From positions 378,040-442,039 of the forward strand of contig NZ_LMHY01000025.1 in the NCBI RefSeq assembly GCF_001429045.1: DNA of 64,000 nt, read 5' to 3'. Source of the stretch: Pseudomonas sp. Root71. GTDB taxonomy: Bacteria; Pseudomonadota; Gammaproteobacteria; Pseudomonadales; Pseudomonadaceae. Under the pieces are notes generated by a model, which saw nothing but the letters and a program-made list of their open reading frames with translations, ran no database searches and was not told the DNA's origin. Positions 2,216 to 17,723 of this stretch are shown here, one piece after another (position 1 is the first letter of the stretch; each line of letters starts with the position of its first letter). The translations under genes were made by a program, and so were the position numbers.

Positions 2216-2998
2216 TCAGTGCACGTCTTTCCAGTATTCGCGCTTGAGCAGGTAAGCGAAGACGAAGAAGAACGCCAGGTACAACAATACGTATGTACCG
2301 ATGCGCTGATGTTGCAGCTTAACCGGGTTAGCCGAGTAAGCCAGGAAGGTTACCAGATTCTTGACCTTCTCATCGAACTGCTCTGCAGTCAGGGCACCGC
2401 TTTTCGGCACGATGGTCAACTGATCGCATGCTTCATGAGTCAGCGCCGTACCGGTCAGAGGATCATATTGCTTCTTGCCGCCCTCGACGATCTGAACCTG
2501 TTTGCAGCCAACCACCTGGCGACCTTGCAGGCCGGCCAGGACGTTAGGCATGCCCACGTTCGGGAAGACCTTGTTGTTCACGCCCCATGGACGCGCAGGG
2601 TCTTCGTAGAACGACCTCAGGTAACCGTAGAGCCAGTCGGTGCCGCGAACACGGGCAACCAGGGTCAGGTCCGGCGGCGCTGCGCCAAACCAGGCCTTGG
2701 CGTCCGCCGGCTGCATGCCGATGCTCATGTGGTCGCCGATCTTGGCGCCAGTGAACACCAGCTTCTCGAGCATCAACTCGTGGGGAATGCCCAGGTCGTC
2801 GGCAACACGCTCATAGCGTTGGAACTTGGCACTGTGGCAACCCATGCAGTAGTTGGCGAACGTACGCGCGCCGTCCTGCATGGCCGCTTTATCGGAAACG
2901 TCGATATCGACCTTTTCCAGCTCGGGGCCACCGTGCTCAGCCGCGAAAGCAAACACTGGCAGCGCAGCAAGCATCAATACAGCAAATAGTTTTTTCAT
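2216..2998 (-). CDS. petC: Cytochrome c1 subunit of the cytochrome bc1 complex
   Basis: 260 residues from ATG 2998. An upstream extension to 3091 is possible but would lie inside petB and lack the signal peptide at the N-terminus. Signal peptide residues 1-20 (LMLAALPVFAFAA). Heme c is attached through CMGCH at residues 51-55. One C-terminal membrane anchor lies near residues 230-252 and ends in LLKREYWKDVH. It accepts electrons from the Rieske centre in the periplasm and passes them to soluble cytochrome c. Its start overlaps the petB stop by one base (TGATG), so the pet genes form a tight operon. Confidence 0.96.
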   Translation of the reverse strand: MKKLFAVLMLAALPVFAFAAEHGGPELEKVDIDVSDKAAMQDGARTFANYCMGCHSAKFQRYERVADDLGIPHELMLEKLVFTGAKIGDHMSIGMQPADAKAWFGAAPPDLTLVARVRGTDWLYGYLRSFYEDPARPWGVNNKVFPNVGMPNVLAGLQGRQVVGCKQVQIVEGGKKQYDPLTGTALTHEACDQLTIVPKSGALTAEQFDEKVKNLVTFLAYSANPVKLQHQRIGTYVLLYLAFFFVFAYLLKREYWKDVH

Positions 2999-4209
2999 CA
3001 GCCAGTCACCCTTTCCGGAACCGGTTTGGTCTTCTCGAGCCTGGTGTAGAACGGCATCAGAATGAAGTAGGCGAAGTACAGGAAGGTACATACCTGCGAC
3101 AACAGCGTACGCTCAGGGGTTGGGGCCAATACGCCCAGCACGCCCAGGATCACGAACGAGATGCAGAACACCCAGAGCCAGATCTTGCTCAGCCAGCCCT
3201 TGTAGCGCATCGACTTGACCGGGCTACGGTCCAGCCATGGCAGGACGAACAGCACAGCGATGGCCGCACCCATGGCGATCACACCCAGGAGCTTGTCCGG
3301 AATCGCACGCAAGATGGCGTAGAACGGGGTGAAGTACCAGACCGGAGCGATGTGCTCTGGGGTCTTGAAGGCGTTCGCCACTTCAAAGTTCGGCTTTTCA
3401 AGGAAGTAGCCGCCCATTTCCGGGAAGAAGAACACGATCGAGCAGAAGATGAACAGGAACACCACCACACCGACGATATCTTTCACGGTGTAGTACGGGT
3501 GGAAGGCAATGCCGTCCAGCGGTATGCCGTTTTCGTCCTTGTGCTTCTTGATGTCGACGCCGTCCGGGTTGTTCGAACCGACTTCGTGCAACGCCAGGAT
3601 GTGCAGCACCACCAGACCCAGGATAACGATTGGCAGGGCAACCACGTGCAGGGCGAAGAAGCGGTTCAGGGTAATACCGGAAATCAGGTAGTCACCACGA
3701 ATCCACTGGGTCAGGTCGTTGCCGATGACCGGGATCGCACCGAACAGCGAGATGATCACCTGGGCCCCCCAGTAGGACATCTGGCCCCACGGCAGCAGGT
3801 AGCCCATGAAGGCTTCGGCCATCAGCGCCAGGTAGATCAGCATGCCGAAGACCCACACCAGCTCACGAGGCTTCTGGTACGAACCGTAGAGCAGGCCACG
3901 GAACATGTGCAGATAGACCACGATGAAGAACGCCGAAGCGCCGGTGGAGTGCAACAGACGCAGGATCGAGCCGTACTCGACGTCACGCATGATGTATTCG
4001 ACGGAGGCGAACGCCTCTTCCGCCGACGGGTTGTAGCTCATGGTCAGCCAGACACCGGTGACGATCTGGTTGACCAGAACGAGCAGCGCCAGGGAGCCAA
4101 AGAAGTAGAAGAAGTTGAAGTTCTTCGGTGCGTAATACTTGCTGAGATGGTCTTCCCACATTTTGGTGGCGGGAAAGCGCGCATCAACCCAATCCATGAA
4201 CTTGCTCAT
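2998..4209 (-). CDS. petB: Cytochrome b subunit of the cytochrome bc1 complex
   Basis: 403 residues from ATG 4209; a GTG directly before it (4212) is in frame, but the ATG overlaps the petA stop as TGATG and gives the family N-terminus MSKFMDWVDARFP. It is a multi-spanning membrane protein carrying both b hemes and the Qo and Qi quinone sites. Recognisable are the GYLLPWGQMSYWGA block (helix C/Qo region), a PEWY-like element seen as PVWYFTPFYAILR, and SGITLNRFFALHV with a heme-ligand His. It is an essential part of proton-pumping quinol:cytochrome c oxidoreductase. Confidence 0.97.
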   Translation of the reverse strand: MSKFMDWVDARFPATKMWEDHLSKYYAPKNFNFFYFFGSLALLVLVNQIVTGVWLTMSYNPSAEEAFASVEYIMRDVEYGSILRLLHSTGASAFFIVVYLHMFRGLLYGSYQKPRELVWVFGMLIYLALMAEAFMGYLLPWGQMSYWGAQVIISLFGAIPVIGNDLTQWIRGDYLISGITLNRFFALHVVALPIVILGLVVLHILALHEVGSNNPDGVDIKKHKDENGIPLDGIAFHPYYTVKDIVGVVVFLFIFCSIVFFFPEMGGYFLEKPNFEVANAFKTPEHIAPVWYFTPFYAILRAIPDKLLGVIAMGAAIAVLFVLPWLDRSPVKSMRYKGWLSKIWLWVFCISFVILGVLGVLAPTPERTLLSQVCTFLYFAYFILMPFYTRLEKTKPVPERVTG

Positions 4210-5947: not shown

Positions 5948-5976
5948 ATCTTACTGAATAGTGCGTACTTTGACAA
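5948..5976 (-). promoter_or_regulatory. Probable sigma70 promoter of rplM-rpsI
   Basis: On the minus strand TTGTCA (5976-5971) and TAAGAT (5953-5948) are spaced by 17 bases, upstream of the rplM start at 5906. The match to the consensus and the spacing are read from sequence; use as a promoter is inferred. Confidence 0.55.
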
Positions 5977-6151
5977 GTCAAAGGCAGCCGGATACAGACG
6001 CTTTCGGGGGCTCGGGTCGGCGCGTCCGTTCAACGGCAAGATTCTTCGGCGGCGGCGCATCACTTCCACTGCAGAAAGAGGTGCGCAATTATGCAGATTG
6101 CGAAAAATAATTCAACCTGCTTTTATGATTGTTTTGCCCAAGGAGCACCCG

Positions 6152-7192
6152 ATGGACTATCGCCAGCTAGGCCGAACCAATCTGAACGTGAGTGCCCTCT
6201 GCCTCGGAACCATGACCTGGGGCGAGCAAAACAGCGAGGCAGAGGCCTTCGCCCAGATTGAGCGGGCCAAGCGTGCCGGGATCAACTTCATCGACACCGC
6301 CGAGATGTACCCGGTGCCACCCAAGGCCGAAACCTACGCCACCACCGAACGCTACATCGGCAACTACTTCAAAAGCCGCGGCGACCGCGGCGACTGGATC
6401 CTGGCCAGCAAGATCGCCGGCCCCGGCAACACCATCGACTACATTCGCGATAAAAACCTGCGCCACAACCGCCAGCACATCACCGAAGCGGTGGATGCCA
6501 GCCTCCAGCGCCTGCAGACTGACTACATCGACCTGTACCAACTGCACTGGCCGGAACGCAGCACCAACTTTTTCGGACAACTGGGCTACAAGCACAAGAT
6601 CGAAGCCAACCTGACCCCACTGGAGGACACCCTCGAAGCGCTGGACGAGCAGGTCCGCGCCGGCAAGATCCGCCACATCGGCCTGTCCAACGAGACACCA
6701 TGGGGCACCATGCGCTTCCTGGCCCTGGCCGAAGCCCGAGGCTGGCCGCGTGCGGTGTCGATCCAGAACCCGTACAACCTGCTCAACCGCAGCTTTGAAG
6801 TCGGCCTGGCGGAAATCGCCATCCGCGAACAGTGCGGGCTGCTGGCCTATTCACCGCTGGCGTTCGGCTTCCTGTCAGGCAAGTACGAAGGTGGCGCCCG
6901 CCCACCAAAAGGTCGCCTGAGCCTCTACAGCCGCTTCAGCCGCTATTTCAATCCGCAGTCGGAAGCCGCCTGCAGCCGTTACGTGGCCCTGGCTCGCGAG
7001 CACGGCCTGGACCCGGCGCAAATGGCCCTGGCGTTCGTCACGCAGCAGCCGTTCGTGACCAGCAACATCATTGGCGCAACGACGATGGAGCAACTGGAGA
7101 GCAACATCGGCAGTTTCGACTTGAAGCTGTCGGAGGAAGTGCTGGAAGGGATCGAGGCGATTCACAAGGATCATCCGAATCCGGCTCCATAA
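6152..7192 (+). CDS. tas: NADP(H)-dependent aldo/keto reductase, Tas-like
   Basis: 346 residues from ATG 6152, chosen because an AGGAG ribosome site lies at 6141 and the family N-terminus MDYRQLGRTNLNVSALCLGTMTWG begins there. The AKR barrel shows the catalytic Asp/Tyr region IDTAEMYPVPP and the Lys and His segments (ILASKIAG; DLYQLHWPERS). Tas-type enzymes reduce carbonyl compounds with NADPH; the physiological substrate is unknown. It is followed by a paired REP element and convergent acyl-CoA dehydrogenase. An aldo/keto reductase also follows rplM in P. aeruginosa. Confidence 0.85.
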   Translation: MDYRQLGRTNLNVSALCLGTMTWGEQNSEAEAFAQIERAKRAGINFIDTAEMYPVPPKAETYATTERYIGNYFKSRGDRGDWILASKIAGPGNTIDYIRDKNLRHNRQHITEAVDASLQRLQTDYIDLYQLHWPERSTNFFGQLGYKHKIEANLTPLEDTLEALDEQVRAGKIRHIGLSNETPWGTMRFLALAEARGWPRAVSIQNPYNLLNRSFEVGLAEIAIREQCGLLAYSPLAFGFLSGKYEGGARPPKGRLSLYSRFSRYFNPQSEAACSRYVALAREHGLDPAQMALAFVTQQPFVTSNIIGATTMEQLESNIGSFDLKLSEEVLEGIEAIHKDHPNPAP

Positions 7193-7206
7193 TTTGTCAT
7201 GACCAC

Positions 7207-7286
7207 GAAAAGATCGCAGCCTTCGGCAGCTCCTACAGGGTGTACGCCAATTCTGTGTAGGAGCTGCCGGAGGCTGCGATCTTTTC
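7207..7286. repeat. Paired REP palindrome, family A
   Basis: Two inverted copies of the unit GAGCTGCCGnAGGCTGCGATC lie about 30 bases apart between convergent genes. Related pairs occur at 29187-29271, 37317-37418 and 40764-40841. This is a typical Pseudomonas intergenic REP doublet and may also work as a transcription stop for both neighbours. Confidence 0.85.
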
Positions 7287-7301
7287 AACCATCAGCGCCA
7301 A

Positions 7302-8438
7302 TCAAAGCGACCGAGCAATAATCTCCTTCATGATTTCATTGGTGCCGGCATAGATCCGCTGCACCCGCGCATCCGCCCATGCCCGGGCAATCGGGTACTC
7401 CCACATGAACCCGTAGCCACCGTGCAACTGCACACACTCGTCGAGCACCTTGCACTGCAGGTCGGTGCCCCAGTACTTGGCCATCGCCGCCGTCGGCACG
7501 TCGAGTTTTCCTTGCAGGTGCAGTTCCAGGCAGCGGTCGACAAAGACGCGGCCGATCTGGATTTCCGTGGCCATCTCCGCCAGCTTGAACCGGGTATTCT
7601 GGAAATCCGCGATCGACTTGCCGAACGCCTTGCGCTCGCGAGTGTAGTCCAGCGTCCATTGCAGCGCCGCTTCGGCTGAAGCCAGCCCGCCAATGGCCAC
7701 GGTAAGGCGCTCCTGGGGCAATTCCTGCATCAGGTAGGCAAAGCCCATCCCGGCCTGGCCCAGCAGGTTTTCCTTGGGTACACGCACGTCCTGAAAGAAC
7801 AGCTCCGAGGTGTCCTGGGCTTTCATCCCGACTTTTTCCAGGCGCTTTCCCTTGTCGAAGCCCGGCGTATTGGCTTCCACCAGAAACAGACTGGTGCCCT
7901 TCGCGCCCGCCTTCGGATCGGTCTTGGCGACGACGATCACCAGATCGGCCAGATAGCCATTGGTGATAAAGGTCTTGGAGCCGTTGATCACGTACTCATC
8001 GCCATCGAGCACGGCCGTGGTTTTCACCCCTTGCAGATCGGAACCGGCGCCCGGTTCGGTCATGGCGATCGCGGTAACCATCTCGCCGGACACCAGTTTC
8101 GGCAGGTATTTATGCTTCAGCGCCTCACTGCCGTAATGCAGGATGTAGGGCGCCACGATGTCCGAGTGCAGGGAAAAACCGATGCCGGTCAGGCCCAGTC
8201 GCCCCACTTCTTCGATCACCACCGCACTGTAGAGAAAGTCCGCTCCCAGGCCGCCGTACTCTTCCGGCAAGTGCGAGCAAAGCATCCCCGCCTCCCCCGC
8301 CTTGTTCCACAGTTTGCGGTCGATATAGCCCTGTTTTTCCCATTGCCCATGGAACGGCACCGCCTCTTTTTCGAGGAACGTCCGCACGCTGTCGCGGAAA
8401 AGCTCGTGCTCGGAACTGAACAGGGTTCTGGGGATCAT
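7302..8438 (-). CDS. Acyl-CoA dehydrogenase
   Basis: 378 residues from ATG 8438 (MIPRTLFSSEHELFRDSVRTFLEKE), preceded by AAAGGTG. The upstream in-frame extension to 8525 has no ribosome site and no family match. Three-domain ACAD fold: N-terminal helices; a beta domain with FAD/substrate signature AIAMTEPGAGSDLQG; a C-terminal domain with QLHGGYGFMWEYPIARAWADARV and the C-terminal Glu region YAGTNEIMKEIIARSL that carries the catalytic base in many members. It catalyses alpha,beta-dehydrogenation of an acyl-CoA with transfer to ETF. Chain length is not predictable. It is divergent from the regulator at 8585, which may control it. Confidence 0.9.
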   Translation of the reverse strand: MIPRTLFSSEHELFRDSVRTFLEKEAVPFHGQWEKQGYIDRKLWNKAGEAGMLCSHLPEEYGGLGADFLYSAVVIEEVGRLGLTGIGFSLHSDIVAPYILHYGSEALKHKYLPKLVSGEMVTAIAMTEPGAGSDLQGVKTTAVLDGDEYVINGSKTFITNGYLADLVIVVAKTDPKAGAKGTSLFLVEANTPGFDKGKRLEKVGMKAQDTSELFFQDVRVPKENLLGQAGMGFAYLMQELPQERLTVAIGGLASAEAALQWTLDYTRERKAFGKSIADFQNTRFKLAEMATEIQIGRVFVDRCLELHLQGKLDVPTAAMAKYWGTDLQCKVLDECVQLHGGYGFMWEYPIARAWADARVQRIYAGTNEIMKEIIARSL

Positions 8439-8584
8439 GCGGCACCTTTTCTTTGTTTTTAGAATGAGTTGACCTTCAGAGACTAAGCCTCGCTTCCGAT
8501 ACAGGACACTGGACACATCCGACAAAAAATAAGACGATCCAGCCGTCTGGTGACCACTTCCCCCTATAAAAATAAAGTTGAATT

Positions 8585-9580
8585 ATGTCTAACCAAGCCT
8601 CCACGCCCCTGCGGCGCGTCAGCATCCTGGCCATCGACCGGGTTTTCGCTTCCACCCTCATGCAAGCCAAGGATTTCTTCCACCTCGCCAGCCTGCGCTA
8701 CGGCAAACAGCTGGGCCAGGGCCTGACACCGGCGTTCGAAACCCGTCTGGTCAGCCCCGACGGCAAACCGGTCAACACTTTCAGTGATGTGATGATTCCG
8801 GTGGACGGCGGGCTGGAAAACGCCGACATCATCGTTCTTCCGGCGTTCTGGGATGATTTCGACAGCCTCTGCAAGCGTTACCCGCAAGTCCTGCCCTGGC
8901 TACGCCAACAACATGCGCGCGGTGCCGTACTGTGCGGCGAAGCCACCGGTGTTTTCTGGCTGGCCGAAGCCGGGTTGCTCAATGGCAAGGAAGCGACCAC
9001 CTACTGGCGGTTCTTCAATGCCTTCGCCGAACGTTTCCCCCAGGTCCAGCTCAATCAGGACAAGCACCTGACCGACGCCGACAACCTGTACTGCGCCGGC
9101 GGCACCACCTCGGCCTGCGATTTGTACATTTACCTGATCGAGCGCTTCTGCGGCGCCAACGTGTCCCAGGCCGTGGCCCGGGACATCCTCTACGAAGTGC
9201 AGCGCAGTTATTCACCGGGACGGATTGGATTCGGCGGGCAGAAGCTGCACCAGGACGTGATCATCCTGCAGATCCAGCACTGGCTCGAAGATCACTTCGC
9301 CGACAAGTTCCGTTTCGAGGACGTCGCCCGCGAACACGGCATGAGCATCCGCAACTTCATGCGCCGCTTCCAGACCGCCACCGGCGACAAGCCACTGCAT
9401 TACCTGCAGCGCCTGCGCATCGAAACCGCCAAGGGCTTGCTGTCCGGCAGCCGCAAGAGCATCAAGACCATCAGCTATGAAGTCGGCTATGACGATGCGA
9501 GCTTCTTCGCCCGGTTGTTCCGCCAGCACACGGAGTTGTCGCCGAATCAGTATCGGCAGCAGTTTCAGCAGGCTGCGTAG
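8585..9580 (+). CDS. GlxA/CdhR-type transcriptional regulator (DJ-1/PfpI + AraC HTH)
   Basis: 331 residues. Residues about 10-190 form a class I glutamine amidotransferase-like (DJ-1/PfpI) domain with a nucleophile-elbow Cys in GAVLCGEATGVFWLAEAG. Residues about 225-330 form an AraC/XylS double helix-turn-helix (FEDVAREHGMSIRNFMRRFQ; IKTISYEVGYDDASFFARLFRQHTELSPNQYRQQF). Relatives sense amino acids and quaternary amines, for example ArgR, GbdR and CdhR of P. aeruginosa. The ligand here is unknown. It is divergent from the acyl-CoA dehydrogenase with a shared 146-base intergenic region, the most likely target. Confidence 0.88.
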   Translation: MSNQASTPLRRVSILAIDRVFASTLMQAKDFFHLASLRYGKQLGQGLTPAFETRLVSPDGKPVNTFSDVMIPVDGGLENADIIVLPAFWDDFDSLCKRYPQVLPWLRQQHARGAVLCGEATGVFWLAEAGLLNGKEATTYWRFFNAFAERFPQVQLNQDKHLTDADNLYCAGGTTSACDLYIYLIERFCGANVSQAVARDILYEVQRSYSPGRIGFGGQKLHQDVIILQIQHWLEDHFADKFRFEDVAREHGMSIRNFMRRFQTATGDKPLHYLQRLRIETAKGLLSGSRKSIKTISYEVGYDDASFFARLFRQHTELSPNQYRQQFQQAA

Positions 9581-9597
9581 CCGAACACCAACCGAAT

Positions 9598-9623
9598 GTG
9601 GAAGCGAGCCTGCTCGCTTCCAC
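9598..9623. repeat. Single REP-like perfect palindrome, family B variant
   Basis: GTGGAAGCGAGC and GCTCGCTTCCAC form a perfect 12-bp inverted repeat around CT. It is a variant of the GTGGGAGCGAGC REP unit found elsewhere in the window and lies just after the regulator gene, at the left border of the accessory cassette. Confidence 0.75.
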
Positions 9624-9778
9624 GCAGATCTTGCGCCGGCCACGCAGTTCTTTCGCTGTGCATTTTCCTACGCAAAAAGCGGAATACAGAGCGCCGAAGA
9701 ACCCAACCCCGCCCACAGACGCAGCCCCTTAAAAAACTTGAAAATCTTCCCTGCAAACACCATCAGGGAAGATCAACC

Positions 9779-11726
9779 ATGACTATCGGATCAAGCTACA
9801 ACTACCCTTCATACATCGCCAAGGAGGCCGCCCGAACAAAGCGCTCGGCTAAAAGCAAATGGGCGGCTCGCTTTCCCAATCCGCCGGATTTGTGCTTTGA
9901 CTATCGTGCACTGGTAGAACAGGAAAACGGCATCGCCAAGGCAACTGACCCGCAACATAAAATCTGCATCATCGGCGCCGGCGTCACAGGCCTGACCGCC
10001 GCCAGAGAACTCTATCGCTGCGGCTTTACCCATATCACTCTCATCGAACAATCCAGACGCATCGGCGGCAGGCATCTGACCGTTCCCGGTAGCCAAAACT
10101 CGGCAGTAAGCCATACACCGTTTGAAATGGGCGCCATGCGCATGCCCTTCTTTAACCGGGCGGATGAGCCACCGACAGAAGGTCGGTCGCTGATGGCTTA
10201 CTACGCCAATCAATTTGAATTGGCGTTTTCAGACTTCGCCAACCCCGGTAGCCAATGGGTTAACTCGACAGGCATCTATCTCCGAGAGGGCAGCATGGGC
10301 GGCGGGTCGGCGCCGCAAATGTTGATATGGAAAAACGAAGACGGCGCCACACCGCCTCCCGGCGATGAATTGCAAAAGGTTTATTCCAAGTGGAAAGCCT
10401 TTGCCGATCGCATGACCCGCCACGTTGCTGAGCTTTATGCGAGCCAGGAATGGGAAGCCATATGGGCTTCTATCGTTGAAAAATACGAGAGTGTCTCGTT
10501 CCGCGACCTGGTCAGCATGCCAGCACTGGAAACTTGGGATCGCCGCTCACCCGGGGATTTCGGCGGAATGGGAATGTCTGCGCAAGAGTCCGCAATTTTT
10601 TACGCGATAGGTATAGGTGACGGTAGCTGGGGAGCTTTTTACGACGTCTGCTGCCTCTACCCTCTGCGTACCGCGATTTTCGGTTTCAGCAGCCAATTGC
10701 AACTGATCCATGGTCGAGTGGACTCAAACGGCGATCCACTGGATTCGCCCTACCTCAATAGCGAAGCCGTTTTTGACTCAATGGGGGCAGAGTTTCGACA
10801 GGCCCCGCTACATCGGCCTCGCCGCTTTGGACGAATGCCTGCTATTTGTGAAAACCGACGAAACCGGAAAGTCCCTCTACGAACATTGCCTCGAAAGAAG
10901 CAATGGGCTTCTCACCAACTCATCCGTCACAAAACTGGAAAAACTGACCAATCAAAGAATACGCGTCTATTACAACTGGAAACACAGTCAACCCGAGCAA
11001 ATCCAGGAGCAATTTGATGACTTTGACTCGGTCATCATGACACTACCCTCCTGGCTGATTGAAACTCGAATCAAGCTCGAAAATTTCACCCGGGAGATGC
11101 TGCCTTTCGAGACGATTAACGCCTACAAAACCGCACACTGGGAAACTAGCTGCAAAGTGTTTGCACCGCTGAAAAAATCATTTCTCTCGAAAAACAAAAA
11201 CATCCCGCAAGCCATCGTAACCGACAGTTTCATCCATGATGTCTATACCTACCGCTACAACGACAATTACAGCTATGACTGCATCCTGCTGAGTTATACC
11301 TGGGAAGATGACGCAACCAAGCTGGCCTCATTCAGCGATAAGGAGCTGGTATCAAAATGCGCCGAAGAGCTGGATCGCATACTCATGAACTCTGCCAACG
11401 TCCAGGAAAAAATCTCTCCCTACATCGGCATTGATCAAGCGGTGGTTCAGCGTTGGATCACTGATAAAAATGCTCTGGGTTGTGCCAAGCTTTACCGACC
11501 GGGCACCTACTATGATGCCGTCGGCCTGATGAAGTACAACCGGGACTTTGCTCATGTATCTGGCTTGTATTTGTCCGGCGAGTCATTTTCCGTCGATGCC
11601 GGTTGGACGGAGCCATGTTTTCGCGGTGCTGTCGATGCAGTGATTCATATCTGCAACAAAACCGCCGCGACCTTCAATGGCGGATTTTCCTTGAGCGACT
11701 ACCCGCACTACCAACTCAAAATCTGA
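9779..11726 (+). pseudogene. IaaM-like flavin amino-acid monooxygenase, frameshifted
   Basis: Two overlapping frames together cover one flavin monoamine oxidase of about 648 residues. The 5' part starts at ATG 9779 and reads in frame to about 10785; the 3' part continues in the +1 frame to TAA-less stop TGA 11726. The first half has the FAD motif ICIIGAGVTGLTAARELYRCG, then SRRIGGRH and FEMGAMRMP. The second has LLSYTWEDDATKL, closely like tryptophan 2-monooxygenase IaaM, and GLYLSGESFSVDAGWTEPCFRGAV, the C-terminal FAD-binding block. Such enzymes oxidatively decarboxylate Trp, Lys or Phe to amides. The shift fits one extra base in the G5 run 10783-10787 or the C4 run 10803-10806. Lower GC and AT-rich codons suggest acquisition. 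It may be an inactive gene or a sequencing error. Confidence 0.8.
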
Positions 11727-11933
11727 TCACATCCCCGTTCCAGAGCCATGCAAGCAATACATGGCTCTACCTCTCGCGCCGGCTACCCACCGCCATCAAA
11801 CATCACCCTGATCCACTTTCGGACAAGGACTACGACCTAAACGGAAGTAGCTGACTTACATCCCACTCCTGACTCCCCTCTTATACACACGCCATTTAAC
11901 AGCTTGAAAAACAATAAAAAGAGGAACGACGGA

Positions 11934-12821
11934 ATGACTGAGCCAACAAGCCCTGTTCGTGTAGCAGTCGTGCAATTCGATCCACAAGTCGGCATCGAGA
12001 AATGTGTAGGTAATCTGCGTCGCAGCCTGGAATTGGCGCTTGAAGCGGTAAACAGCGGTGCGAATCTCATCGTTCTGCCCGAGCTTTCCAATACCGGCTA
12101 TTTCTTCAGCAATCGACAGGATGCCTTCGCCCATGCCGAAGCGGTTCCCGACGGGCCAAGCGTGCAGTGCTGGATCGACTTCGCCCGCGAACACAACGTT
12201 TACCTCGTGGCCGGCCTGGCCGAACGCGACGGCATGCGACTCTTCAACACCGGCGTTCTGGTGGGACCAGACGGTTTTATCGGCAAGTACCGCAAAGCCC
12301 ATTTGTGGAATCTGGAGAAGCTCTGGTTCACCCCCGGCGACCTGGGTTTCCCGGTTTTCGACACACCGATCGGCCGCATCGGGCTGTTGATCTGCTGGGA
12401 CATCTGGTTCCCGGAGGTGCCACGGATCCTCGCCCAGCAAGGCGCAGACATCATTTGCAGCCTGAACAACTGGGTCTGGACACCGCCGCCGCTGTTCGAC
12501 GATGCCGGTAAGTGCATGGCGTCGTATCTGACGATGACCGCCGCTCACGTCAACAACGTGTTTATCGCTGCCGCCAGCCGGATCGGCGAGGAGCGCGGCG
12601 CGCGCTACCTAGGTTGCTCGTTGATTGCCGGAACCAACGGCTGGCCGATTGGCGCCGTGGCTTCGGCAGACAGACAGGAAATCCTGTTTGCCGATGTCGA
12701 CCTGACCAGCTCCCGCAGTGCGCCCATCTGGAACAACCTGAACGATCTGCATCGCGATCGCCGAGCCGACCTTTACGATCAGATGCTCGGCTACACCCAA
12801 CACCCTTGCCTCCCACGTTGA
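11934..12821 (+). CDS. Nitrilase-superfamily amidohydrolase
   Basis: 295 residues from ATG 11934, with GAGGAA 9 bases upstream; an upstream in-frame TTG is rejected. The Glu-Lys-Cys triad is visible: E50 (VLPELSNTGYFF), K121 (KYRKAHLW) and C154 (LLICWDIWFPE). It resembles carbon-nitrogen hydrolases acting on small amides, such as 5-aminovaleramidase DavA or N-carbamoylputrescine amidase. Position directly after an amino-acid monooxygenase gene matches the DavB-DavA and IaaM-IaaH logic, in which the amide product is hydrolysed to acid and ammonia. The exact substrate is inference only. Confidence 0.85.
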   Translation: MTEPTSPVRVAVVQFDPQVGIEKCVGNLRRSLELALEAVNSGANLIVLPELSNTGYFFSNRQDAFAHAEAVPDGPSVQCWIDFAREHNVYLVAGLAERDGMRLFNTGVLVGPDGFIGKYRKAHLWNLEKLWFTPGDLGFPVFDTPIGRIGLLICWDIWFPEVPRILAQQGADIICSLNNWVWTPPPLFDDAGKCMASYLTMTAAHVNNVFIAAASRIGEERGARYLGCSLIAGTNGWPIGAVASADRQEILFADVDLTSSRSAPIWNNLNDLHRDRRADLYDQMLGYTQHPCLPR

Positions 12822-12837
12822 TCAGGAGGCCTATCCC

Positions 12838-14031
12838 ATGGAAGTTACAACCGACAAAAACCAACCATCGCGCAAATCACCGATTGATACAGCCGTCGTC
12901 CTGCTAATGATCGGCGCGACACTGCTGATCGTCTGGCTTTCTTTCAGCAACCGGACTTTCTGGGGAGCACATTGGCCCGGGTACGGCGACATGGTATCGC
13001 TGCTACCCGAACCGAGTGCCCGGCTGCGCTGGGTGTTAGGTGACATCAGCGAGGTGGCTTTCTACAAGCACGAGTTCGCCTCGATCGGCCTGCTGGCGGG
13101 CGCTTATCTGGCTTACTGGGCGAGTCGAACGGGGAAATCCTGGCAAGGGTTTGCCATCTCCTATGGAACGGGACTTTGGCCCTGGCTGGTCACCAGTTCG
13201 TTGCTCGGGCTGCTGCTGAGCAATCTGCTGTGGGGCTGGACGGTGACAGCCACAACCTGGCAACCCACATTCGTAGCATTCGTCTCGCTGCCAGCGGCGA
13301 TGGTGCTGATGTTTGGTGGAGGCTGGAAGGTCACAATCAACGGCGCACTCATGGGCGCCCTATTCGTCACACCGATGTGCCTGCTGATCGTCAACTACGT
13401 GTGCCAACCGCTGGCCTTACCTGCAGTGATTGGCAATGTGCTGGGCATGGCGATTGCCAGCGTCCTGGCGTTTCTATTCTGCCGCTATTGGCCGAGCCTG
13501 GTGAAATCCAGGTCGTCGCAAACGCCACCCGCCTCGATTGCTCCCGCCAAGGCGCCCGACTATGGCGTCATCTGGAGCCTGCGCCGGATTCTGGCGGACT
13601 TTTCCGAAGCACCGTTCTTCGGCAATGAGCTGGCTAGCCTTGGCCTGATACTGGGTGCATTGCTGGCGTACAGCTTGAACCCTTCAAGCCCCGCGTACGG
13701 ATCGGGCCTGTTGCTGCACATCATCGGCGCGCAGGCATTAGCCTCAGCCATCGGCGTGCTGATCTGGCGTCGACAATGGATGTTGCGCGGCTGGTATCCC
13801 ACTTACATCCCGCTGGTTTCAGTGGTGCCCGCGGCAATCCTGGCCTATGGCGGCAGCTGGCAGATTATCGTCTCAAGTGCACTGCTGGGGGCATTACTCG
13901 CACCACCGCTGGCCTGTGTGATTGCCAGGAAATTACCGGCCGACATGCACGCCTACATCGCTAATGTACTGTCGATGGCCATCAGCACACTGCTGATCGT
14001 GCCGCTGATCGGTTTTTTGATCGCTGATTAA
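12838..14031 (+). CDS. Unrecognised integral membrane protein with internal duplication
   Basis: 397 residues, start ATG 12838 preceded by AGGAGG 9-14 bases upstream, 16 bases after the amidase gene. After an N-terminal segment (residues 17-36 hydrophobic) come two homologous halves. Half 1, about 64-215, begins GDISEVAFYKHEFASIGLLAGAYLAY; half 2, about 249-395, begins ADFSEAPFFGNELASLGL. Both continue with W(Q/Y)PT...SxxPAA...GG.W...ssALxGAL..P and end xxxIxNVLxMAIxxxL. I count about 10-12 membrane spans. A polar Ser/Pro-rich linker (223-241) joins the halves. Duplicated architecture suggests a transporter, perhaps for the amino acid or amide of this cassette. No family recognised. Confidence 0.75.
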   Translation: MEVTTDKNQPSRKSPIDTAVVLLMIGATLLIVWLSFSNRTFWGAHWPGYGDMVSLLPEPSARLRWVLGDISEVAFYKHEFASIGLLAGAYLAYWASRTGKSWQGFAISYGTGLWPWLVTSSLLGLLLSNLLWGWTVTATTWQPTFVAFVSLPAAMVLMFGGGWKVTINGALMGALFVTPMCLLIVNYVCQPLALPAVIGNVLGMAIASVLAFLFCRYWPSLVKSRSSQTPPASIAPAKAPDYGVIWSLRRILADFSEAPFFGNELASLGLILGALLAYSLNPSSPAYGSGLLLHIIGAQALASAIGVLIWRRQWMLRGWYPTYIPLVSVVPAAILAYGGSWQIIVSSALLGALLAPPLACVIARKLPADMHAYIANVLSMAISTLLIVPLIGFLIAD

Positions 14032-14108
14032 TGCCCCAGCTATTCGGCTGTATCGCGGCCTCAAAAGCGGATACAGCCACTTTTCATTACAAACAAGCGA
14101 GGTATCCC

Positions 14109-15092
14109 ATGGACCTGCCCAAACTGTCCATCGCGGCACTTGGCGGCACGGTAAGCATGCAAGCGAGCAATGCCGGTGAAGGCGTCATCCCGACCGTCAG
14201 CGGCGAAGCCCTGCTGACTTCCATACCGGAACTGACGACACTGGCCGGAGTCACCGTCGAGACCCTCGGCCTGCTGCCCAGTGCATCCCTGGATTTCGAG
14301 CTTTTGCTGAACGTATTGTCCTGGGCTGAGTTTCAGGTCAAACAGGGAACCGATGGGGTCGTGATAACCCAGGGCACCGACACCCTCGAAGAAGCCGCGG
14401 TGTTTTTCGATTACCTGTGGCCCTACGACACCCCCTTGGTGCTGACCGGTGCCATGCGTTCCGCAGCGCAGCCAGGTGCCGATGGACCGGCCAATCTTCT
14501 GGATGCATGTCGCGTTGCCTTGGCGCAGAACAGCCAGCAACGCGGTGTCCAGGTCGTGATGAACGGACAGATTCATCAAGCGTGCAGCGTCCGCAAAACC
14601 GATTCGCTGGCATTACAGGCGTTTTCCTCTCCGGTCGTGGGGCCCGCGGGCCTACTGTTGGAAGACCGTGTTCGCTACCTGCGCCCGCCAGGGCCACGCA
14701 CGGTGTTACCGCTGCCGCAACAGACCACGCAGAAGGTTGCGCTGCTTGAGGCCTCACTTTCGGCCGACACCCTGCTACTGGAAAATATTCTCGCACTCGA
14801 TTACGACGGGCTGGTGATCGGCGGTTTCGGCGCCGGCCACATCTCGCAGCGCTGGGCGACAATGATTGAACATATTGCCGAACGAATCCCCGTGATCATT
14901 GCGACCCGAACCGGTTCCGGCTCCACCGCACGTGCCTCTTACGGTTTTGGCGGTGGTGAAATGGACTTAATTCGCAAGGGGGCATCGATGGCGGGTTTTC
15001 TATGTCCGCGAAAAGCCAGAATTCTGCTTTGGCTGCTGCTTGGTTGCCAACGGCAGCACGAGCTTGCGCATTATCTCAACGAGGACATTTGA
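14109..15092 (+). CDS. Asparaginase/glutaminase-family amidohydrolase
   Basis: 327 residues from ATG 14109, with GAGG at 14097; an in-frame ATG at 14031 overlaps the previous stop but lacks a Shine-Dalgarno site and adds a non-homologous 26-residue tail. The two catalytic-Thr motifs of the family are visible: IAALGGTVSMQ near the N-terminus and VITQGTDTLEE around residues 81-91, then LTGAMRSAAQPGADGP. The C-terminal domain is the usual small domain. No signal peptide is seen, so a cytosolic enzyme is likely. It hydrolyses a side-chain amide with release of ammonia; the link to the monooxygenase and amidase suggests amide-nitrogen catabolism. Confidence 0.85.
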   Translation: MDLPKLSIAALGGTVSMQASNAGEGVIPTVSGEALLTSIPELTTLAGVTVETLGLLPSASLDFELLLNVLSWAEFQVKQGTDGVVITQGTDTLEEAAVFFDYLWPYDTPLVLTGAMRSAAQPGADGPANLLDACRVALAQNSQQRGVQVVMNGQIHQACSVRKTDSLALQAFSSPVVGPAGLLLEDRVRYLRPPGPRTVLPLPQQTTQKVALLEASLSADTLLLENILALDYDGLVIGGFGAGHISQRWATMIEHIAERIPVIIATRTGSGSTARASYGFGGGEMDLIRKGASMAGFLCPRKARILLWLLLGCQRQHELAHYLNEDI

Positions 15093-15136
15093 CTTCAAAA
15101 CAATGTACAAACCTGTGGGCGGAGGATTTGCGCTGA

Positions 15137-15168
15137 CAAAAAAGGCCTGCAATCGCAGGCCTTTTTTA
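15137..15168. terminator. Bidirectional rho-independent terminator
   Basis: Stem AAGGCCTGC/GCAGGCCTT with AATC loop, A-tract to the left and T6 to the right, between the convergent asparaginase gene and zapE. Confidence 0.9.
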
Positions 15169-15182
15169 TTTTCCGAATCGTC

Positions 15183-16277
15183 CTACGGCTTGTGCGCCCG
15201 GGCCAGGAATTCGTGGGATTGCATTTCCAGCAGTCGGCTCAAGGTACGCTGGAACTCGAAGTTCAGGCGACCACCTGTGTACAGGTCTTTAAGCTCGACT
15301 TCGGCGGAAATGATCAGCTTCACGTTACGGTCGTAGAATTCGTCGACCATGTTGATGAAGCGTCGGGCGATGTCGTCGGTGGTAACGCTCATTTGCTCGA
15401 CATCGCTGAGCAGCACGGCGTGGAAGATCTTGCCCAACTCGATGTAGTCGTTCTGGCTGCGCGGGCCATCGCACAGTTCACGGAAGTTGAACCAGGCCAC
15501 GTCATCGCAGGTGCGCACGGCACGAATTTCACGGTTCTCGATCATCAGCACATCATTTTCGACCGCCGCCGTGCATTCCGGTGTCAGCGCACGGAAGCTC
15601 TTGCGCAGGCTTTCGTTGGCGGCTTCGTCGAGCGGATAGTGGAACAGCTCGGCTTGTTCGAGGTGACGCAGACGATAGTCGACGCCGCTGTCGACGTTGA
15701 CGATCTCGGTATTCTGCTTGATCAGCGCAATGGCCGGCAGGAAGCGCGCGCGTTGCAGGCCGTCCTTGTAGAGGCCGTCCGGCACGATGTTCGACGTCGC
15801 GACCAGGGTCACGCCGTTCTTGAACAGTTCTTCCATCAGGGTGCCAAGGATCATGGCGTCGGTGATGTCGGAAACGAAAAATTCATCGAAGCAGATGACC
15901 CGGGCTTCGGTGGCAAAACGCTTGGCGATGATGGTCAGCGGGTTTTTCTCGCCACCCAGGGTTTTCATCTCTTCGTGCACGCGCTTCATGAAGCGGTGGA
16001 AGTGCGTACGGGTCTTTTCCTTGAAGGGCAGCGCTTCAAAGAAGGTATCCACCAGGTAAGTCTTGCCGCGACCTACGCCGCCCCAGAAATACAGGCCCTT
16101 GACCGGGGTCTGATCCTTCTTGCCAAACAACTTGCCCAGCAGGCCCGGCTTGTTTTGCTCGGCCGCGACCAGGTCGTCGTACAGGCGCTGCAAATGACGC
16201 ACGGCAGTTTCCTGTGCGGCGTCATGGAAGAATTCCGGGCGTTTCAGATCAGCTTGATATCGTTCTAGGGGCGTCAT
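15183..16277 (-). CDS. zapE: Cell division ATPase ZapE (AFG1 family)
   Basis: 364 residues. AAA+-like ATPase with Walker A GGVGRGKT at 66-73 and Walker B VICFDEFFVSD near residue 127. In E. coli ZapE associates with the Z-ring and modulates FtsZ bundling, especially under low oxygen. The length and the ending (SRLLEMQSHEFLARAH) match the family. Adjacent to trpS on the same strand; 90 bases separate them. ZapE-trpS-hydrolase-YhcB is also the P. aeruginosa order, so the core chromosome resumes here. Confidence 0.93.
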   Translation of the reverse strand: MTPLERYQADLKRPEFFHDAAQETAVRHLQRLYDDLVAAEQNKPGLLGKLFGKKDQTPVKGLYFWGGVGRGKTYLVDTFFEALPFKEKTRTHFHRFMKRVHEEMKTLGGEKNPLTIIAKRFATEARVICFDEFFVSDITDAMILGTLMEELFKNGVTLVATSNIVPDGLYKDGLQRARFLPAIALIKQNTEIVNVDSGVDYRLRHLEQAELFHYPLDEAANESLRKSFRALTPECTAAVENDVLMIENREIRAVRTCDDVAWFNFRELCDGPRSQNDYIELGKIFHAVLLSDVEQMSVTTDDIARRFINMVDEFYDRNVKLIISAEVELKDLYTGGRLNFEFQRTLSRLLEMQSHEFLARAHKP

Positions 16278-16367
16278 AATTCGTTAGCAAGGCAACAAAA
16301 ACGGGCCGACACTGTAGCGACGGCCCCGAGGAATGGCAATCGGCCCTTGGTCGGGCCGAACCGTTGT

Positions 16368-17723
16368 TTATTCCTGAACAGGCGTCAGGGCGATGCGCAA
16401 AGCCTCGACGGCAGCGTCACGGGCGGCGCTGTCGGCAAACGCCGGGCTGTCGGCAACGCACTCGCCTTCCAGCCAGACGCTGAAGCTCAGGTCTTCACTG
16501 CGCACGTCCAGATCCTGGCCCGACTGCAGTTGCTTGGTCACCTGCCCTGCGGTTTTACCGTCGGCGAAGTTGCGCGACAGCAGCAGTTGTTCGCCATCGG
16601 CCGCCAGCAGACGGAAGCGGAAACTGCCGTCGTCTTCACGGAAGCTGACAAAACGTGCAGCCTTCACGGCTTTCTTCTTGGTGGTCGCCGCCACTTGGGT
16701 CTGGGCAACGAACGAGCGCAGGCCCACCGCCTCACGCAGTTCGTTGAGGAATGGCGTCGCCACCGCACGGGCTTTTTTCGCGCCGTGTTGCAGGATGTCT
16801 TCCAGATCCGCCGGGCGCTCGATCAGCTGGTTATAACGCTCGCGGGATTCGCCCAGTTCGTTGTCGAGCAACTGGAACAGACGATTCTTCGCCTCGCCCC
16901 AACCCAGGCCCTGCAACAGTTCGCTACGGAACTCGTCGGCCTGCGCCGCAGTGGCGAACGCCTGGAACAAGGTGAACAGGTGCGAATTGTCCGGATCCTT
17001 GGCTTCGCCCGGCGCGCGGGAGTCGGTGACGATCCGCGAAATCGCGTCCTTCATCTCTTTGGCGCTGGAGAACAGCGGGATGGTGTTGTCGTAGCTCTTC
17101 GACATCTTGCGGCCATCCAGGCCCGGCAACGTGGCGACGCTCTCTTCGATCAACGCCTCGGGCATGGTGAAGAACTCCTTGCCCTGGCCAAACAGGTGGT
17201 TGAAGCGCTGGCCGATGTCCCGCGCCATTTCCACGTGCTGGATCTGGTCACGACCGACCGGCACCTTGTGCGCGTTGAACATCAGGATGTCCGCGGCCAT
17301 CAGCACCGGGTAGCTGTACAGGCCCATGGTGATGCCGGCGTCCGGGTCTTCACCGGTCTCGACGTTCTTGTCCACCGAAGCCTTGTAGGCGTGGGCGCGA
17401 TTGAGCAGGCCCTTGGCGGCAACGCAGGTCAGCAGCCAGGTCAGTTCGGGGATTTCCGGGATGTCGGACTGGCGATAGAAGGTCACGCGGTCCACATCCA
17501 GGCCACCGGCCAGCCAGGTCGCGGCGATTTCCAGTCGCGAGCGCTGGATGCGCAGCGGGTCATCGCACTTGATCAGGGCGTGGTAGTCGGCCAGGAAGTA
17601 GAACGAATCGGCATTGCTGTCACGGCTGGCGACGATCGCCGGGCGGATGGCGCCGGCGTAGTTGCCCAGGTGCGGCGTGCCGGTGGTGGTGATGCCGGTG
17701 AGGATACGGGTACGAGTCGTCAT
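16368..17723 (-). CDS. trpS: Tryptophanyl-tRNA synthetase with C-terminal extension
   Basis: 451 residues from ATG 17723; the upstream ATG at 17747 lacks support. Class I synthetase: HIGH-type TPHLGN at 17-22 and KMSKS at 206-210. The core ends near residue 335, after which there are about 110 extra residues. These include a Lys/Ala-rich linker and an RFVSFREDDGSFRFRLLAADG segment resembling YegP/DUF1508 repeats, ending GECVADSPAFADSAARDAAVEALR. Canonical E. coli TrpS is about 334 residues, so the tail is an added domain. It charges tRNA-Trp in the cytosol. Confidence 0.95.
   Translation of the reverse strand: MTTRTRILTGITTTGTPHLGNYAGAIRPAIVASRDSNADSFYFLADYHALIKCDDPLRIQRSRLEIAATWLAGGLDVDRVTFYRQSDIPEIPELTWLLTCVAAKGLLNRAHAYKASVDKNVETGEDPDAGITMGLYSYPVLMAADILMFNAHKVPVGRDQIQHVEMARDIGQRFNHLFGQGKEFFTMPEALIEESVATLPGLDGRKMSKSYDNTIPLFSSAKEMKDAISRIVTDSRAPGEAKDPDNSHLFTLFQAFATAAQADEFRSELLQGLGWGEAKNRLFQLLDNELGESRERYNQLIERPADLEDILQHGAKKARAVATPFLNELREAVGLRSFVAQTQVAATTKKKAVKAARFVSFREDDGSFRFRLLAADGEQLLLSRNFADGKTAGQVTKQLQSGQDLDVRSEDLSFSVWLEGECVADSPAFADSAARDAAVEALRIALTPVQE

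Follow-up and report, generated by a model that had tools for sequence, protein, structure and literature searches.

We describe here an accessory cassette of four genes, mo, nit, mem and asn, carried by a stretch of 64,000 nucleotides (the window) from Pseudomonas sp. Root71 (genome G000, contig 25; 6.25 Mb in 30 contigs). Its coding regions lie on the forward strand at 9779-11726, 11934-12821, 12838-14031 and 14031/14109-15092, and the Pfam assignments of the four genes are, in order, Amino_oxidase, CN_hydrolase, no family and Asparaginase. We propose, with a modest lean in its favour, that the cassette is at heart a module for the uptake and hydrolysis of small amides, and that Pseudomonas joined an amino-acid monooxygenase to it. 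We hold as an evenly balanced case the wider proposal that mem represents a hitherto undescribed family of amide channels with the urea-transporter fold, spread over Gammaproteobacteria, Alphaproteobacteria and Actinobacteria, which would travel with amidases of unrelated folds, replace and be replaced by urea-type ATP-binding cassette (ABC) importers and, joined in Pseudomonas to the monooxygenase, form one module for external and amino-acid-derived amides. We did not recognise a description of this cassette in the open-access literature searched, which is not a claim that it is absent from print.

Conservation of the cassette and exchange of its predicted transporter

Scanning 84,980 species genomes with mem yielded 183 confirmed relatives, and the 80 retained, all of them Pseudomonas records, provided the locus counts. 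nit adjoins mem in 79 of these 80 loci and asn is present in 59; an intact mo occurs in 51, a broken or partial one in 8 and none in 21. A set of 298 Pseudomonas genomes was also searched, with thresholds of E <= 1e-100 for nit and E <= 1e-60 for mo, and gave mem in 103, nit in 109 and mo in 74. These counts ignore relatedness among genomes, and Fisher values calculated from them should therefore not be taken as probabilities. Of the 103 mem genomes, 101 also have nit, which adjoins mem in 99. Only two genomes hold mem without nit at this threshold, namely G180, which keeps a nit remnant, and G308; nit is found without mem in eight genomes, two of which, G069 and G194, hold distant homologues in another operon type.

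The cassette is widespread in Pseudomonas as a conserved unit. The sequence-only reading, a first note made from the letters of the window without database searches, had supposed such a unit and would have given it up if homologues were never found together elsewhere; they are, nit being present in 73 of the 74 mo genomes and adjoining mo in 72. Within this unit mo is optional and dispensable: it is absent from 30 of the 103 mem genomes and, according to the match list, damaged in 14 of the 74 mo genomes (in 12, the source genome included, it is found only in pieces and in 2 it has one in-frame stop; the mo of G227, split between contigs, was left out of this count). The same reading saw the essence of the cassette in a closed route from amino acid to amide to acid, an idea not supported in view of these losses and of the six mem loci outside Pseudomonas described below, where mo was not found by tblastn; nor was it found by tblastn in six further nit loci.

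When plasmids were searched by tblastn, six records proved to carry a mem homologue (42-50% identical), and the product is called "hypothetical protein" in all five that are annotated. A restriction of mem to Pseudomonas, suggested by its own copy being the only one in 369 class and 100 phylum genomes, was overturned by these six homologues. mem adjoins an amidase in five of the six, and these amidases belong to two unrelated folds, CN hydrolase and amidase-signature. The gene order is LacI regulator, asparaginase, nitrilase and mem in Paenarthrobacter; nitrilase, mem, amidase and tautomerase in Phyllobacterium, which has both folds; and amidase followed by mem on two Rhodococcus plasmids and one Prescottella plasmid. 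The amidase of Rhodococcus CS98 is of the amidase-signature type, and those of the other Rhodococcus and of Prescottella are 83% identical to it. Prescottella (L187, 12362-16039) and Rhodococcus CS98 (L185, 13841-17546) also have AmiS/UreI, a further amidase and a gene resembling glutamine synthetase near the amidase-mem pair; in both records an acetate-CoA ligase lies past this group.

Homologues of nit are present on 101 plasmid records at E <= 1e-40, and six records beyond the mem-bearing ones were inspected. In Variovorax an importer with the UrtA/UrtB/UrtC-D/UrtE layout is followed by a nitrilase, an amidase and a tautomerase, which share 73%, 57% and 70% identity, respectively, with their Phyllobacterium counterparts; the slot taken by the importer in the Variovorax operon is taken by mem in Phyllobacterium. 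In Rhizobium the order is Peripla_BP_5 protein, AmiR_N-ANTAR regulator, nitrilase, Urt-like importer and amidase, and in Shinella a glutamine amidotransferase adjoins the nitrilase and other ABC importers are present. Plasmid pC of Ancylobacter polymorphus (L193), which is typed as conjugative and comes from activated sludge, carries at 7031-14834 a nitrilase and an Urt-like importer, then urease gamma/beta and alpha genes. Within Pseudomonas itself, the mem-less G069 and G194 each have a nit homologue (50-52% identical), then an Urt-like importer and an asparaginase, the importer and asparaginase genes of G194 being 81-97% identical to those of G069. Across these related operons the slot is held either by mem or by a urea-type ABC importer.

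The four proteins

The membrane protein mem (12838-14031, forward strand), our proposed small-amide channel, has no NCBIfam match and no Pfam match over cut-off, and an AmiS/UreI (PF02293) match is likewise lacking. Its duplication, already noticed in the sequence-only reading, is confirmed by HHalign, which aligned the two halves at 99.7% (E 2e-24 over 165 columns; reversed control 0.5%) and, with distant members added, again at 99.7% (E 2.9e-27). An AlphaFold2 model built from 29 aligned sequences reached a predicted local distance difference test score (pLDDT) of 79.1 and a predicted template modelling score (pTM) of 0.79. When this model was compared with the PDB by Foldseek, six chains were found at E <= 1e-3, all urea transporters and no others. 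In VIA-align, ranks 1-16 were all urea transporters (Z 22.3-23.5, 281-304 residues, root-mean-square deviation 3.1-4.5, 11-16% identity), followed by Rh/Amt ammonia channels at Z 12.6 and below and by NqrB at 8.8. Each half of the window protein contains a D-x-S-E-x-x-F motif resembling the urea-transporter pore-helix motif, which is G-x-x-Q/E-V-x-F in dvUT, and the glutamates Glu72 and Glu257, one per half, are invariant in 19 sequences from three classes.

The second gene, nit (11934-12821, forward strand), encodes a carbon-nitrogen hydrolase (nitrilase superfamily) amidase, with 176.9 bits on PF00795 (cut-off 23.2) and with Glu49, Lys120, Glu127 and Cys153, which we take to be the catalytic residues, invariant in 19 sequences. 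It stays below the NCBIfam equivalog cut-offs of N-carbamoylputrescine amidase AguB (156 of 410 bits) and of nitrilase NF040852 (222 of 500 bits). Among its solved relatives, four nitrilase/CN-hydrolase chains come first, then N-carbamoyl amidohydrolases; the neighbour of mo is a CN hydrolase and not the amidase-signature IaaH.

The asparaginase-family amidohydrolase asn (14109-15092, forward strand) has a longer open frame from 14031, and the Met at 14109 is invariant in 13 aligned sequences, window included. It scores 168.9 bits on the generic PF00710 (cut-off 22.5) and 182.9 of the 314.3 bits set for type II asparaginase (TIGR00520). No signal peptide was seen by eye, and the protein is probably cytoplasmic. 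The presence of asparaginase-type asn beside transporter-like mem agrees with the earlier idea of a cassette having its own transporter and a second amidase. An asparaginase 48% identical to asn also occurs on plasmid pBN1 of Paraburkholderia aromaticivorans (L195, 6001-11692), with genes for an ABC importer and an amidase after it; the annotation of this record contains neither nit nor mem.

The first gene, mo (9779-11726, forward strand), encodes an L-amino-acid 2-monooxygenase/oxidase-like flavoprotein and is frameshifted: the N part (about 9779-10780) is in the frame of 9779 and the C part (about 10785-11726) in that of 10710, with PF01593 in both. The sequence-only reading was correct in placing four coding regions in one direction, but its monooxygenase is not intact. 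The break lies at a run of five G (GGGGG, 10783-10787, forward strand), and the extra base is found in none of the seven aligned relatives, which read GGGG or GGGA in L017-L021 and L023 and are diverged there in L025. The two parts are 96-98% identical to the copies of L017-L021, which count as intact, and the L017 copy reads through in a single frame. The frameshift could be a true mutation or an assembly error in the G run. mo is probably inactive in the source genome, and the module there would accordingly consist of nit, mem and asn.

The best solved relative of the intact L017 mo is the tryptophan 2-monooxygenase 4iv9 (97 bits), and the same holds for a profile of 17 sequences (119 bits); taken separately, the C part of the window protein matches 4iv9 best and the N part alone does slightly better on L-amino-acid oxidases. 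R121, K459, W559 and W609 of mo are invariant in the 17 sequences and align with Arg98, Lys365, Trp466 and Trp519 of 4iv9, which we take to be its active-site residues. mo thus has both PF01593 and the conserved carboxylate arginine and active-site residues (in their presumed roles) of L-amino-acid 2-monooxygenases such as TMO, DavB and PAO. It is predicted to be a tryptophan-2-monooxygenase-like flavoenzyme and may catalyse a monooxygenase or an oxidase reaction. No near relative of mo turned up outside Pseudomonas: the best match there was 75 bits in a class sample of 274 genomes, and on plasmids the best ten of 163 records, which come from Agrobacterium, Rhizobium, Pantoea and Paraburkholderia, reached 24.6-26.6% identity, a comparison that does not include two Pseudomonas plasmids of the 163. 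An AlphaFold model of mo was too poor (pLDDT 46.3) and was not used.

Concerning the substrate of mo, a passage of PMC5832979 locates a specificity position at Asp238 in the lysine enzyme (L-AAO/MOG), Val247 in TMO and Leu319 in PAO, and describes a D238F mutant acting on Leu, Met and Phe. The equivalent of Asp238 in mo appears to be the invariant Phe287, in a weakly aligned stretch (3.2 and -0.5 bits) where the neighbouring Trp235/Phe244 position corresponds to Trp284. Phe287 argues tentatively against lysine as substrate and, less firmly, the substrate is probably an uncharged amino acid. We also considered that mo might act on Gln or Asn to give a diamide for two amidases, an idea that would explain the two hydrolases and that the tentative Phe287/Trp284 pocket opposes, as it does polar substrates in general.

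The insertion site and regulation

The cassette, a movable gene set, is an insertion between a core regulator and zapE, as had been read from the sequence. The upstream gene (8585-9580, forward strand), an AraC/DJ-1 regulator of the FtrA/GlxA-like type, and zapE (15183-16277, reverse strand; NF040713 462 bits, cut-off 140) are each present in 78 of 79 Pseudomonas genomes. The regulator is found with or without the cassette; we therefore rejected it as a cassette member and regard it as a core gene. Both flanking genes were found in 77 genomes, on the same contig in 76, and in 61 of these 76 they are 38-279 bp apart, versus 5608 bp in the window. In G021, the nearest relative among those searched (flanking proteins 99% identical), 82 bp replace window positions 9581-15137, the inserted segment being delimited by blastn of L180 against the window.

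Larger gaps between the regulator and zapE occur in 15 genomes, 8 with mem (3.4-7.4 kb) and 7 without (1.1-43 kb). The latter comprise the small genome G014, in which the two homologues are 43 kb apart, and six genomes with gaps of 1.1-4.6 kb; other DNA may therefore enter this site as well. Conversely, the gap is closed in 14 mem-bearing genomes, in which the cassette must be located elsewhere; of the 80 mem loci, 56 occupy the site between the regulator and zapE, 22 are at other sites and 2 show a single flank. Two mem copies lie about 10 kb apart in L016 (G023), at 5967-7148 and 16239-17429, the first without an adjoining nit. Between 9500 and 15250 of the window, no inverted repeat pair of at least 16 bases marks the ends of the insert, and two direct repeat families of at least 16 bases are present. 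A palindrome at 9596-9625, at the left end of the insert, is presumably REP-like (repetitive extragenic palindromic), and a similar one is seen in the empty site of G021.

Sigma-70-like sites occur at chance level (3 found, 3.1 expected), and 9 terminator-like sites were found for 5.5 expected (standard deviation 2.9). In L045 (Pseudomonas fluorescens FW300-N2E3) the gene before the cassette, at 2802-3890, encodes another AraC/DJ-1 regulator, which shares about 25% identity with that of the core, and a similar match lies at 2814-3782 of L073; the additional regulator of L045 is perhaps the cassette's own.

The proposed amide module, its rivals and known systems

In the module that we propose, mem would be a urea-transporter-fold channel passing a small neutral amide or urea-like compound across the inner membrane, nit would split the amide into an acid and ammonia in the cytoplasm, and asn, the second amidohydrolase, would act on that amide or on a related one. 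Where intact, mo would supply nit with an amide formed intracellularly from an L-amino acid that probably carries no charge. The predicted fold of mem, its linkage to nit and to other amidases, its exchange for urea-type importers, the operon partners of nit relatives and the dispensability of mo speak for this scheme. What the data show directly is which genes are present and in what order, their conservation, the frameshift, the insertion, the repeat within mem, its predicted fold and its exchange for an importer. The direction and substrate of transport, a compound common to all the enzymes and the amino acid used by mo are what we infer in this scheme. Of the functions suggested earlier, scavenging of an amide is the best supported.

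Several results weigh against this proposal. An equilibrating amide channel is an awkward partner for an enzyme by which the amide is produced intracellularly. At 21 of the 80 loci no asn was found, G308 has mem but no nit, and the 19 kb around mem in the Arthrobacter record gave no tblastn match to nit, to asn or to either of two amidase-signature proteins. G308 and this record would suit a mem unconnected to amidase systems, a view that the remaining records contradict. The Streptomyces nitrilase has no importer or second amidase in the stretch seen, which has transposases nearby, and the unannotated Embleya record showed no homologue of mem, the importer, asn or the two amidase-signature proteins. 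The asparaginases of Paenarthrobacter and of G069 and G194 are just 33-35% identical to asn. The Urt-like binding proteins reach 227-348 bits on the best urea model, where the NCBIfam urea cut-offs are 493-495, so these importers are urea-type rather than proven urea importers. Finally, none of the 56 mo upstream regions and none of the 82 of nit contained a sigma-54 nitrogen-control promoter, and sigma-54 control of the cassette was set aside.

The relation of mem to urea transporters calls for the same caution. None of the 29 mem members matches PF03253 (UT urea transporter) at E <= 1, and HHalign of mem with 20 PF03253 proteins gave 2.6% and 2.0%, at which homology in sequence is not shown. 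For merged half-profiles the best alignment with PF03253 fell on the pore-helix motif, with no more than 8.2% in one comparison and 10.5% (E 0.003) in another, the reversed controls giving 1.4% and 2.4% (E 0.019). Single mem halves against urea-transporter halves gave 0.4-18%, the 18% match being in another register, where canonical urea-transporter halves find each other at 99.3%; the alignments compared are shallow (effective number of sequences, Neff, 1.8-3.1). The urea-transporter fold is thus supported by prediction and membership of the UT family is not.

Among the alternatives, the one that survives best is that mem is an exporter, or a transporter of ammonium or another small molecule, which removes the product of nit instead of importing an amide. 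This we regard as unlikely. A weak match to the ThrE exporter family (PF06738) in 14 of the 29 mem members at E <= 1 (best E 7e-4; 16.6 bits for the window protein, cut-off 26.3) speaks for it and against our proposal, and Rh/Amt channels come second in the structure ranking at Z 12.6. However, urea transporters are far ahead in that ranking (up to Z 23.5), and related operons fill the slot of mem with importers having UrtA-like periplasmic binding proteins. Slightly less probable again is that the substrate is a urea derivative (a ureido compound or alkylurea), mem being in effect a divergent urea/ureide channel. The urease genes downstream of the nit relative and importer in Ancylobacter, and the N-carbamoyl amidohydrolases that come next after the four nitrilase/CN-hydrolase chains among the solved relatives of nit, are in line with such a substrate; the second enzymes of other operons are nevertheless amidases and asparaginases, one operon has an AmiR-type regulator, and a canonical PF03253 urea transporter is already encoded elsewhere in the source genome.

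We consider improbable an auxin-type route, in which mo would convert Trp to indole-3-acetamide, nit would release indole-3-acetic acid and mem would export it. The kinship of mo with tryptophan 2-monooxygenase (119 bits), including the invariant Arg, Lys and two Trp of the presumed active site, would suit this route, which is opposed by the low identity of mo (at most 26.6%) to the best ten of the 163 plasmid proteins and by the persistence of nit and mem in the 30 mem genomes without mo. Urea-transporter-fold pores are, moreover, narrow. The indole-3-acetic-acid-like output named in the sequence-only reading is weakened because nit is not of the IaaH type and because several of its relatives stand in short-amide/urea operons, beside the corresponding importers. 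A passage of PMC3596284 assigns an auxin role to a tryptophan 2-monooxygenase gene of strain UW4. Least probable is a DavBA-like route, in which mo would act on Lys (or Arg) and nit on 5-aminovaleramide or 4-guanidinobutyramide: it is favoured by the consecutively numbered KT2440 pair PP0382/PP0383, from the same two superfamilies as mo and nit in a passage of PMC2563689, and by the AguB match of nit (156 bits, cut-off 410), but a neutral-amide channel fold is ill-suited to a charged amide and, in the tentative alignment, the lysine-binding Asp of L-AAO/MOG corresponds to the invariant Phe287, which also weakens the 5-aminovalerate-like output envisaged earlier. A route to auxin or to 5-aminovalerate is unlikely.

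If the small-amide proposal is correct, the urea-transporter fold would serve a wider range of solutes, a family missing from the Pfam and NCBIfam versions used here would receive a name and a common accessory gene set of Pseudomonas would be explained. In three classes of soil bacteria, the "hypothetical" proteins encoded beside amidases may then be urea-transporter-fold amide channels, and mo-type monooxygenases should not readily be taken for auxin genes.

Compared with known systems, the cassette shares with the IaaM/IaaH auxin pathway a distant relative of IaaM (tryptophan 2-monooxygenase), but nit comes from another amidase superfamily than IaaH, and nit and mem occur without mo. DavBA of Pseudomonas putida (lysine monooxygenase/5-aminovaleramidase) likewise combines a TMO-like flavoenzyme with a CN hydrolase, under consecutive gene numbers; it differs in the specificity residue, tentatively predicted to be another in mo, and to our knowledge it includes no permease or asparaginase. 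Amidase operons with the small amide channels AmiS/UreI (PF02293) under AmiC/AmiR control resemble the cassette in pairing an amidase with a dedicated small amide permease, a part that we propose for mem, and the nit relative of Rhizobium has an AmiR-like regulator and a Peripla_BP_5 protein as neighbours. mem is nonetheless unmatched to AmiS/UreI, which stands beside other amidases in the mem regions of Rhodococcus CS98 and Prescottella. The Urt/Fmd-type ABC importers of urea and short-chain amides fill the slot of mem in Variovorax, G069 and G194 and adjoin the nit relatives of Rhizobium and Ancylobacter; unlike mem, to which they are unrelated, they are energised and have a binding protein. 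Finally, the UT/SLC14 urea transporters (PF03253; dvUT 3k3f, UT-B 4ezc) share with mem the predicted fold, two homologous halves and, in each half, a pore-helix-like motif with Glu where they have Gln or Glu. mem differs from them in having no PF03253 match or significant profile-profile similarity, in the invariant Glu of both halves and in its place beside an amidase in five of the six records outside Pseudomonas.

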